A stretch of DNA of 64,000 bases from Acutalibacter sp. 1XD8-36 (GTDB lineage: Bacteria; Bacillota; Clostridia; Oscillospirales; Acutalibacteraceae): positions 1 to 64,000 of the forward strand of contig NZ_QZDU01000003.1 in NCBI RefSeq assembly GCF_009917525.1, in the 5' to 3' direction. The position numbers and the translations under genes are program-made. The notes under the pieces were generated by a model that was not told the DNA's origin, searched no databases, and was given only the letters and a program-made list of their open reading frames with translations. This document shows positions 57,088-59,961 of this stretch, piece by piece (position 1 is the first letter of the stretch; every line of letters begins with the position of its first letter).

Positions 57088-57297
57088 TTACTCTATCCCC
57101 AGCACCTTATAGTCCTGGGCCTCAACAGCGGCCTTCAGCTCGCTGTCGCTTATATTCCCGCTGAGGGTCACCGCCGCTGTGCCGGATTCGTGGCTCACGT
57201 CGGCGCTCTCCACCTGGGCCAGGGCTTCCAGGGCCTTTTTTACCCGGGCCTCGCAGTGTCCGCACATCATGCCTTCGATTTTCATGGTCTTAGTCAT
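57088..57297 (-). CDS. Possible internally started CopZ-like chaperone
   Basis: In frame with copA, ATG 57297..57295 is preceded by AAGGAG (57312..57307) with a 9-base spacer. Translation from here would give a free 69-residue protein with GMMCGHCEARVKKAL, the size and motif of CopZ. Whether it is produced separately is inference. Confidence 0.45.
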   Translation of the reverse strand: MTKTMKIEGMMCGHCEARVKKALEALAQVESADVSHESGTAAVTLSGNISDSELKAAVEAQDYKVLGIE

Positions 57298-59622
57298 AGC
57301 TTTTGTCTCCTTTGTGATAGTATTATTTTTAACACGCTTTTTAAAGCGGTGGTCGTGCCTTGGGTCGTAGAGCTTGAAAAGGTTGAGCCTGAGGGCGTTG
57401 CTCACCACGCAGAAGCTGGACAGGCTCATGGCCGCAGCGCCAAACATGGGGTTCAGGGTGAGGCCGAGGGGGATGAGCAGGCCCATGGCGAGGGGAATGC
57501 CGATGGTGTTATAGAAGAAGGCCCAGAACAGGTTTTGGTGGATGTTCACCAGGGTCGCGCGGCTCAGGCGCAGGGCTGCGGGCACATCTTTAAGGGAGCT
57601 TTTCATCAGCACCACATCAGCGGCGTCCAGGGCAACGTCGGTGCCGGCTCCTATGGCTATGCCGGTGTCGGCACGGGTGAGGGCGGGGGCGTCGTTTATT
57701 CCGTCGCCAACCATGGCGACCTTGCCCTGGGTTTTCAGCTGTCTGATAACGGCCTCCTTACCGTCGGGAAGCACCCCGGCGATTACCTCGTCAACCCCGG
57801 CCTGGGAGCCGATAGCCTGGGCGGTGCGCTGGTTGTCGCCGGTTAGCATTACCACCCGCAGGCCCATGGCCTGCATTTCCCTTATGGCTTCGGGGCTGTC
57901 TTCCTTCACGGTATCAGCTACGGCTATCAGCCCCAGCACCTGCTTATTGGTCTCGCTTGCAAAGAACATGGGGGTTTTTCCCTCGCCGGAGAGCCTTAGG
58001 GCTTCACTATCCAGGGTGCCAATGGCTATGCCACTCTCCTCAAGCATTGGGCGGTTGCCGGCGATATATGTGCCGCCGTTAAGCTCGGCGCGTACCCCGC
58101 GGCCGTGTATGGCGGTGAAGCCCTCCACCGGCTGTAGGGGGATATCTTTTGACAGGGCCTCCTGTACTATGGCGGCGCCCAGGGGGTGCTGTGACGGATT
58201 TTCAAGGGCGGCGGCTATAGTGAGCAGCTCCGGCCCGGAGGTACTGCCGGCAGGTATAACGTCGGTGACCTTGGGCTCGCCGGAGGTGATGGTGCCGGTC
58301 TTATCCAGCACGACAATATCAGTGCGCCCGGCGGCCTCAAGGGAGACGGCTGTTTTAAACAGTATGCCATTCTTGGCCCCCAGGCCGCTGCCCACCATTA
58401 TTGCCACCGGGGTAGCGAGCCCCAAAGCGCAGGGGCAGCTTATCACCAGCACGGAGATACCCCTGGCAAGGGCAAAACCGGCTCCGCTGCCCAGGATAAG
58501 CCATACGGCGGTGGTAACAATGGCAAGGGCAATTACAGTGGGCACGAAAATGCCCGATACCTTGTCGGCTACCTTGGCGATTGGGGCTTTGGTAGCCGCC
58601 GCGTCGCTTACCATCTGGATTATCTGGCTGAGGGTTGTGTCCTGGCCCACCCGGGTGGCCTGACATTTCAGGTAGCCGGATTTGTTGAGGGTTGCGGCGG
58701 AAACCGGGTCCCCGGGGCCTTTGTCCACAGGGACGCTCTCGCCAGTTAGGGCGCTCTCGTCCACTGCCGCTGTGCCCTCCAGCACAATGCCGTCCACCGG
58801 TACGCTCTCACCGGGGCGCACGGCGAAGGCGTCCCCGGGCATGACCTGCTCGATGGGCACCTGGACCTCCTTGCCGTCGCGGATTAAGGCGGCGGTCTTG
58901 GGGGCCAGCTTCATCAGGCTTTTCAGGGCGTCGGTGGTGCGGCCCTTGGAGCGGGCCTCCAGTAATTTGCCCAGGGTTATGAGGGCAAGTATCATGCCCG
59001 CCGACTCAAAATAGAGCTCCATCATGTAGTCCATCACGGCGGCGCTGTCCCCGCGGAGCTGTGCGCCGGTCATGGCGAACAGGGCGTAGGTGCTGTAGAC
59101 AAAGGCCGCCGCCGCGCCCAGGGCCACCAGGGTGTCCATATTTGGCGACCGGTGCCAGAGGCTTTTGAAGCCGCTGATAAAGAAGCGCTGGTTTATTACC
59201 ATGATTATCCCTGTCAATAACAGCTGTATCAGGCCCACGGCAATATGGTTGCCGGCGAGAGCCCCGGGGAGGGGCCAGCCCCACATCATATGGCCCATGG
59301 AGAAGTACATAAGGACTATGAGGAAGCCCATGGACCAGAAGAGGCGCTTTTTGAGAAGGGGGGTCTGGGTGTCCTTCAGGCTGTCTTCGCTTACGGAGCT
59401 CTCCCGGGCGGCGGCATTGGCCTGACCCTTTTCAGTTGCGCCGTACCCGGCGGATTCCACTGCGGCTATTATCTCCCCGGGGGAGGCGCTGCCCTCCACG
59501 CCCATGGAGTTTGTGAGCAGGCTCACCGAGCAGCTGGTTACGCCCGGAAGCTTGCCCACGGCCTTTTCGACTCTGGCGCTGCACGCCGCGCAGGTCATGC
59601 CGGTGACATTGTATTGGTTCAT
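57088..59622 (-). CDS. copA: Copper P-type ATPase with C-terminal CopZ-like domain
   Basis: An 844-residue P1B-ATPase exporting Cu(I). N-terminal metal-binding domain with GMTCAACSARVEKA, eight membrane helices, the CPC motif (ISCPCALGLATP), DKTGTITSGEPK and the hinge MVGDGINDAPAL are complete. The last 69 residues (from 776, MTKTMKIEGMMCGHCEARV) form a second heavy-metal domain like the free chaperone CopZ. The linker NNTITKETKA reads through what looks like an old gap with ribosome site. csoR lies directly upstream. Confidence 0.93.
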   Translation of the reverse strand: MNQYNVTGMTCAACSARVEKAVGKLPGVTSCSVSLLTNSMGVEGSASPGEIIAAVESAGYGATEKGQANAAARESSVSEDSLKDTQTPLLKKRLFWSMGFLIVLMYFSMGHMMWGWPLPGALAGNHIAVGLIQLLLTGIIMVINQRFFISGFKSLWHRSPNMDTLVALGAAAAFVYSTYALFAMTGAQLRGDSAAVMDYMMELYFESAGMILALITLGKLLEARSKGRTTDALKSLMKLAPKTAALIRDGKEVQVPIEQVMPGDAFAVRPGESVPVDGIVLEGTAAVDESALTGESVPVDKGPGDPVSAATLNKSGYLKCQATRVGQDTTLSQIIQMVSDAAATKAPIAKVADKVSGIFVPTVIALAIVTTAVWLILGSGAGFALARGISVLVISCPCALGLATPVAIMVGSGLGAKNGILFKTAVSLEAAGRTDIVVLDKTGTITSGEPKVTDVIPAGSTSGPELLTIAAALENPSQHPLGAAIVQEALSKDIPLQPVEGFTAIHGRGVRAELNGGTYIAGNRPMLEESGIAIGTLDSEALRLSGEGKTPMFFASETNKQVLGLIAVADTVKEDSPEAIREMQAMGLRVVMLTGDNQRTAQAIGSQAGVDEVIAGVLPDGKEAVIRQLKTQGKVAMVGDGINDAPALTRADTGIAIGAGTDVALDAADVVLMKSSLKDVPAALRLSRATLVNIHQNLFWAFFYNTIGIPLAMGLLIPLGLTLNPMFGAAAMSLSSFCVVSNALRLNLFKLYDPRHDHRFKKRVKNNTITKETKAMTKTMKIEGMMCGHCEARVKKALEALAQVESADVSHESGTAAVTLSGNISDSELKAAVEAQDYKVLGIE

Positions 59623-59667: not shown

Positions 59668-59961
59668 CTATCTCATCAGCTTTTGCAGCGCGGCGGTGAG
59701 CTCATCCACGGTGCTGTCGTCACCGCGCCGCAGATCCTCTGCAACGCAGGTGCGCAGGTGCTGGGACAGGAGCTCCCTTGAGAAGGCGTTCAGAGCCGCC
59801 CCTACCGCTGCCACCTGGGCCAGGACGTCAATGCAGTACGCGTCCTTTTCGAGCATTCCCCGGATACCCCGCACCTGTCCCTCAATACGGCTCAGCCGGT
59901 TTATCAGGCGCTTGTATTCGTCGTCGGAGCGCTCCCTGGTCTTATGGCATTCCTCGCACAT
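59668..59961 (-). CDS. csoR: CsoR-type copper-sensing repressor
   Basis: A 97-residue four-helix DNA-binding protein. The metal-site residues are Cys in DAYCIDV and His/Cys in QHLRTCV, with the N-terminal RLSRIEGQVRGIRGML typical of DUF156. Cu(I) should release it from DNA. It is the first gene of csoR-copA, and its promoter contains two matching sites. Homologous nickel or formaldehyde sensors differ in the C-H-C pattern, so copper is the better call. Confidence 0.9.
   Translation of the reverse strand: MCEECHKTRERSDDEYKRLINRLSRIEGQVRGIRGMLEKDAYCIDVLAQVAAVGAALNAFSRELLSQHLRTCVAEDLRRGDDSTVDELTAALQKLMR

Follow-up and report, generated by a model that had tools for sequence, protein, structure and literature searches.

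The copA gene of Acutalibacter sp. 1XD8-36 raises the question of whether a single reading frame can supply both a copper pump and a free copper chaperone. Within the window, by which we mean the whole stretch of 64,000 nucleotides that was analyzed, the copA frame continues free of stop codons through an N-terminal HMA domain (GMTCAAC), a P1B core in which the SCPC metal motif is present (SCPCALG), a linker reading ...KNNTITKETKA, and a C-terminal HMA domain of 69 residues counted from M776 (MTKTMKIEGMMCGHC...). The translation matched TIGR01511, the profile for copper-translocating P-type ATPases, at 587.7 bits against a cut-off of 397, and thus qualifies as a CopA-type protein. In mRNA sense, the linker presents a Shine-Dalgarno (SD) sequence, AAAGGAG, followed after a 9-nt spacer by an ATG in the copA frame (Table 1). 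The original prediction, that copA reads without a stop into a C-terminal HMA domain and that an SD, a nine-base spacer, an in-frame ATG, and an MMCGHC domain of 69 residues lie at this place, was confirmed in both coordinates and sequence. The gene just upstream has RicR as its top profile match, at 75.9 bits, which is under the RicR cut-off of 175.

Table 1. Features of the copA locus, numbered from the first nucleotide of the window.
Feature	Position	Strand	Remarks
copA, Cu(I) P1B-type ATPase	57088..59622	minus	844 aa; N-terminal HMA (CAAC) and C-terminal HMA (CGHC)
Linker, last transmembrane segment to C-terminal HMA	57298..57357	minus	upstream limit approximate
Internal Shine-Dalgarno, AAAGGAG	57307..57313	minus	within the copA frame (ACA AAG GAG = T K E)
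Internal ATG start codon, M776	57295..57297	minus	in frame with copA
Internal in-frame ORF, predicted free CopZ-like chaperone	57088..57297	minus	69 aa, from M776 to the common stop codon
CsoR/RicR-type repressor gene, just upstream of copA	59668..59961	minus	profile match

The locus was compared with relatives, all from the phylum of the window genome; other phyla are not in the sample. A scan of named genomes took the 80 top-scoring relatives out of at least 592, is for that reason skewed toward close kin, and gave a fused copA in 80 of 80. A family search produced matches in 123 of 150 genomes, from which 109 loci were read besides the window, and a phylum search produced matches in 201 of 398 genomes, from which 69 loci were read, nearly all of them top-ranked and one (G497) from lower down. 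Among 190 loci, the window included, 157 were fused, 32 lacked a C-terminal HMA domain in frame, and 1 was cut off; of 69 further loci, 48 were fused and 21 were not. This gives a fused total of 205/259 loci, and 203 fused loci were left after removal of two near-copies with greater than 95% identity (L037 and L091). The window's own copy (L114) and a locus whose contig ends just past the internal Met (L133) were also left out. A sequencing error that hides a stop codon, the caveat attached to the fusion when it was first noticed, is excluded as its cause because the fusion recurs in 157/190 and 48/69 loci.

The C-terminal domain of the window matched PF00403 at 55.3 bits over positions 1–58 of 62 (cut-off 24.8), meeting the test for a complete HMA domain with a CxxC motif (MMCGHC). 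The 69-amino-acid domain did not reach the curated NCBIfam cut-offs for CopZ, scoring 58.2 against 85 for NF047957 and 50.9 against 91 for NF033795, and we therefore refer to it as CopZ-like rather than CopZ. Solved structures matching the domain were, in order, a domain of Copper-transporting ATPase 2 (7xuk), free CopZ (6ff2), and domains of CopA, so that CopZ is the nearest free chaperone among them. The domain is identical at 42/69 positions to the separate CopZ of one relative (L152), compared to 23/57 for the N-terminal HMA domain of its own protein. Over the fused loci, the C-terminal motif is CxHC in at least 184/203, and the N-terminal motif is CAAC, CSAC, or CASC in 199 of the 200 N-terminal domains found. 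The C-terminal domain is thus CopZ-like, but its existence as a free protein and its carriage of Cu(I) are inferred from sequence. The window genome contains only one other HMA match in a PF00403 search, which is of the DCANCA type and not of the CopZ type. This 72-amino-acid protein (L003, G000:C21:464447-464614) adjoins what by eye appears to be an ArsR-type regulator gene. Similar small genes were found repeatedly in many relatives and may represent separate N-terminal-type domains of a Zn/Cd ATPase.

An SD-like sequence ahead of an in-frame ATG is not in itself unusual. In 155 fused ORFs, an SD-like tetramer, defined as GGAG, GAGG, or AGGA at −20 to −5 of the ATG, precedes 356 of the 3788 remaining in-frame ATGs (9.4%). 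The lone site in the window is not above chance, and the case consequently rests on comparison with relatives; what exceeds chance is the conservation of the site. We searched for an ATG located 5–14 codons before GMxCxxC and preceded at −20 to −5 by one of the three tetramers. An in-frame ATG was found in this slot in 192/203 fused loci, and all but five of these also had the SD, so that the complete site is present in 187/203. By comparison, only 3.1% of 10,150 random windows from the same fused ORFs satisfied the rule. In two loci (L053 and L123) the SD precedes a slightly earlier ATG, and these are counted under a wider slot rule but missed by a narrower one. The site occurs in 21 family-level groups by our own count from the kin codes of the family and phylum searches. 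Among three plasmid records with the fusion, GGAG or GAGG precedes an ATG in the usual place in Ruminococcus albus 7 (RUMAL_RS18915, which reads AAGGAGGATAATACA-ATG) and in Roseburia sp. 831b; in Butyrivibrio fibrisolvens D1, AGGA precedes an ATG that lies two codons closer to the motif.

The internal sites also resemble true gene starts in strength. The SD pairing energy averaged −9.49 kcal/mol over 192 internal starts and −9.55 kcal/mol over 191 copA gene starts, 149 of which pass the tetramer rule; the anti-SD used was the general one and not one read from the 16S end of this genome. The mean 60-nt MFE was −3.1 kcal/mol at the internal start compared to −14.2 kcal/mol at 1500 other internal ATGs, but this control was not matched for base composition and we give the accessibility result little weight.

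Several observations indicate what is being conserved. When codons were drawn according to each gene's own usage in a set of 145 loci having the ATG, the synonymous sequences contained an SD in a mean of 79.1 loci and a maximum of 92 over 200 draws, compared to 142/145 observed. At codon −4, GAG outnumbers GAA 96:6, whereas elsewhere in the same tails the ratio is 647:789 and GAA is the commoner codon. The SD is read in different frames, as xxG-GAx in 137 loci, as GGA (Gly) in 46, and as xGG-A in 2, with at least 25 changes of frame on the tree. The length and sequence of the linker vary among relatives, the SD excepted, and the SD-ATG spacing is tight, the GGA lying mostly 10, 12, or 13 nt ahead of the ATG. 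Linkers between tandem HMA domains, examined as a structural control, had no Met in the slot (0/19), which indicates that the HMA fold makes no demand for a Met at this position. The synonymous bias and the occurrence of the SD in differing frames point to conservation of nucleotides and not of peptide, and on this sequence evidence we consider the SD to be conserved at the RNA level. The test for an in-frame internal start, namely an SD and start codon at initiation spacing that are kept beyond coding need, is met.

In six relatives (L152, L167, L187, L212, L250, and L254) copA and copZ are split by a stop codon, and in these split forms the start of copZ is the sole evident route to CopZ. 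In L152, L167, L250, and L254, copZ is started on its own by an ATG that follows either an SD or an SD-like stretch rich in G. In L187 (GTGA) and L212 (TAATG) the copZ start and the copA stop overlap, and these junctions are likely to represent translational coupling and possibly intermediates between the separate and fused forms. The SD of L212 sits within the end of copA. Another locus (L284, G511:C26) has an unfused copA whose last codons overlap an out-of-frame copZ start, AAAGGAGATGATCAAA-ATG-GAAAAAACC; its copZ frame runs for 13 codons before it meets a stop, at the metal motif, and is apparently a copZ remnant.

We inferred the age of the fusion from a FastTree analysis of 253 CopA cores, of which 200 were fused, 25 had an adjacent separate HMA gene, and 28 had neither in the stretch fetched. 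Cores shorter than 450 amino acids were dropped, the root was placed at the midpoint, and deep support is weak. Fused forms account for 130/132 rows in the clade of the window (local support 88), 67/77 in another clade (39), and 0/38 in a third (100), and the core identity of fused relatives to the window extends down to about 46%. The fused state requires at least 11 changes on the tree, with some split or lost forms lying inside both of the mainly fused clades. For example, the fused L158 is joined by the split L167 and L250 (local support 99) and the fused L253 by the split L254 (100); support for placing the split L152 beside the fused L146 is weak (23). This distribution is most simply explained by an old fusion that was afterward split or lost in some relatives. 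The proposal that two genes merged here by loss of a stop does not hold as a local, recent event in this genome, being rejected by the predominance of fused forms in the two clades, on a tree whose root and deep branches are weakly supported.

The fused relatives that lack the site provide further information. No usable internal site was found in 12/203 fused loci, which requires 12 changes on the tree, and four more loci with a weak or GTG site (L170, L246, L253, and L244) were set apart. On re-examination of genomes, G036 (L123) proved to have the site and G103 (L170) a weak site. An HMA gene directly downstream of copA was found in 0/175 loci with the site and in 3/12 without it (L072, L085, and L106), and a further site-less locus (L234) has an HMA gene directly upstream. 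Upstream HMA genes are also present in at least 8/175 loci with the site, and several of these genes start with a membrane segment. Counts for the upstream side are minimum values, the flank being only about 200 nt in loci fetched by region. Flanking genes were identified by profile search, a motif scan having missed two downstream genes with a Gly before the first Cys. Eight loci (L058, L066, L074, L089, L092, L095, L102, and L110) have a small gene for an HMA protein with the motif GMHCxxCK just upstream of the fused copA. Several of these proteins have a membrane segment and a CC-rich stretch at their start, and they would be a second, possibly membrane-anchored, copper-binding protein of the cluster.

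Genome-wide, a separate CopZ-like gene, defined by GMxCxxC and a score of at least 45 bits, was found in 7/12 genomes without the site and in 0/40 with it (39 plus the window's own). The association gives a Fisher p of 6e-6 if kinship is ignored. Phylogenetically independent pairs showed the same direction, but few were informative and the result was not significant (median p 0.25 and 0.5 in two runs). The bit threshold was chosen after looking at the data, and one of the seven genes lies close to it at 46.0 bits (G545). Below 45 bits, genomes with the site also contain small ORFs with GMxCxxC, the highest-scoring of those seen at 43.3 bits (L334; the others are L337, L343, L344, L345, and L346). 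For genomes with the site, 20 of 41 rows of small-ORF matches were fetched, including all six of at least 45 bits, and these six have CANCA, CPNCA, or CGHCA after Leu-Asp or Leu-Cys and not GMxCxxC. By the same definition, no separate CopZ-like gene was found in five of the 12 site-less genomes (G001, G016, G397, G548, and G549), which indicates that a free CopZ is not indispensable everywhere. Loss of the site thus tends to accompany possession of a separate copZ-like gene. Fused relatives without a ribosome site, which had been named in advance as grounds for rejecting the original prediction, do therefore exist, but more than half of their genomes have a separate CopZ-like gene.

A potential concern is that the SD and ATG are a nonfunctional relic of once-separate copA and copZ genes, the fused protein being the sole product. 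The existence of split relatives does make it probable that the site originated as the genuine start of a gene. Decay would be expected of a relic, however, and the site instead persists through two clades of mainly fused forms whose core identity falls to about 46%, with an SD that shifts frame at least 25 times yet remains an SD and with GAG retained over GAA; we consider it very unlikely that the site is no more than a relic. Slightly less likely again is an action of the SD-like sequence upon elongation, for instance a pause that helps the last transmembrane helix to insert or the pump to fold. It has been proposed that SD-like sequences within coding regions make ribosomes pause, and the SD does sit shortly past the last transmembrane segment. 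An elongation pause would nevertheless require no ATG at initiation spacing, and it is the pair that is present in 187/203 loci; moreover, the length from membrane segment to SD varies widely, whereas the distance from SD to ATG is tight.

We give still less credence to conservation of a peptide, Lys-Glu-...-Met before the domain, in place of the RNA. KE is the commonest form (74/142), but the residue before Glu can be K, T, M, E, Q, A, L, P, or V, and the glycine-frame SDs replace the Glu form altogether. The bias among synonymous codons and the absence of a slot Met from tandem HMA linkers are likewise not accounted for by a peptide. The least likely of the alternatives is that free CopZ arises through programmed frameshifting, termination, and re-initiation, or that a frameshift truncates the pump. 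A scan of the 20 codons before the internal ATG, which covers only the linker before the C-terminal HMA domain, found in-frame XXXYYYZ heptamers in 36/192 loci, compared to a synonymous null with a mean of 24.1 and a maximum of 35 (100 draws), and an out-of-frame stop overlaps the ATG (ATGA) in 109/192. The ATGA overlap is, however, expected from ordinary A-rich second codons (ACA, AAA), and an SD and ATG work without any frameshift. With no such heptamer in 156/192 loci, frameshifting in the linker is not supported as a general explanation, the mild excess notwithstanding. That excess remains unexplained, and perhaps comes merely from A-rich linkers.

We therefore favor internal initiation, and consider that the conserved internal start very probably (probability roughly 0.86) yields a free CopZ-like protein besides the fused pump, expression being inferred. 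Ribosomes from the normal copA start would produce a pump with the CopZ-like domain tethered at its C-terminus, as follows from the open frame. Other ribosomes, to judge from conservation, would bind the SD in the linker and initiate at M776, so that the same mRNA also gives a free CopZ-like chaperone of 69 residues, which is inferred to accumulate. CopZ is known to deliver Cu(I) to CopA and to signal to the repressor, and by inference from this function the free protein may carry Cu(I) to CopA and perhaps also to the CsoR-type repressor. The relative amounts of the two products would depend on how strong the internal site is, and possibly also on elongating ribosomes clearing it. The comparison (the site in 187/203, its conservation at the nucleotide level, and the trend linking site loss with separate copZ) strongly supports the suggestion that one locus may give both a fused exporter and a free chaperone, with the 7-kDa product itself still an inference.

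It is also probable, if somewhat less so, that across much of the Clostridia copZ was absorbed into copA and persists there as a gene that is hidden and unannotated, expressed by way of a conserved internal ribosome-binding site, possibly tuning the chaperone-to-pump ratio; this would be a second origin of pump and chaperone from one gene, by internal initiation and not by frameshifting. If so, the copper chaperones seemingly missing from many gut Clostridia exist but are unannotated, and production of a pump plus a chaperone from one gene evolved by two different translational routes. It would also be an instance of in-frame internal initiation that is widely conserved and in which the short product has a gene of its own in related species, and it opens the question of why cells retain a tethered and a free chaperone alike. 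It also suggests that automatic annotation hides such internal products; for the three plasmid records with the fusion, the genes listed over the part inspected include one ATPase but no CopZ, in a gene table known to be incomplete.

One of the structure matches, 3fry, annotated as 'Probable copper-exporting P-type ATPase A', likewise has a C-terminal HMA domain fused to a copper ATPase, and we know of no internal start described for it. Among the open-licence titles listed, no publication dealt with internal initiation within copA or with a copZ contained in copA in Clostridia. The CopA(Z) of E. coli is an N-terminal domain that is released by frameshifting to a stop, the frameshift site being in the N-terminal region. 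Efficient frameshifting in E. coli copA is reported to result in a copper chaperone besides the pump (PMC9548414, citing Meydan et al. 2017; Drees et al. 2017). To that extent the systems are alike, with one copper-ATPase gene giving an exporter and a free HMA chaperone, but in E. coli it is the N-terminal domain that is obtained by frameshift and in Acutalibacter the C-terminal domain, by predicted in-frame internal initiation. A word search of a FEBS J. paper on terminal metal-binding domains (PMC11970713) found no instance of 'C-terminal MBD', 'C-terminal metal-binding', or 'alternative start'. The copZA operon of B. subtilis is regulated by CsoR (work cited in PMC7558416). The same parts are involved, a CsoR-type repressor, CopA, and CopZ; copZ is a separate gene there, whereas in the window the copZ-like unit is inside copA. 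In-frame internal starts are established in enteric bacteria, and bacterial pairs of this kind (infB, clpB, mrcB, and cheA) resemble the copA case in having an N-terminally truncated second product made from an internal start in the same frame (PMC11005335). In contrast to those pairs, the short product predicted for copA is a complete unit that has its own gene in other species.
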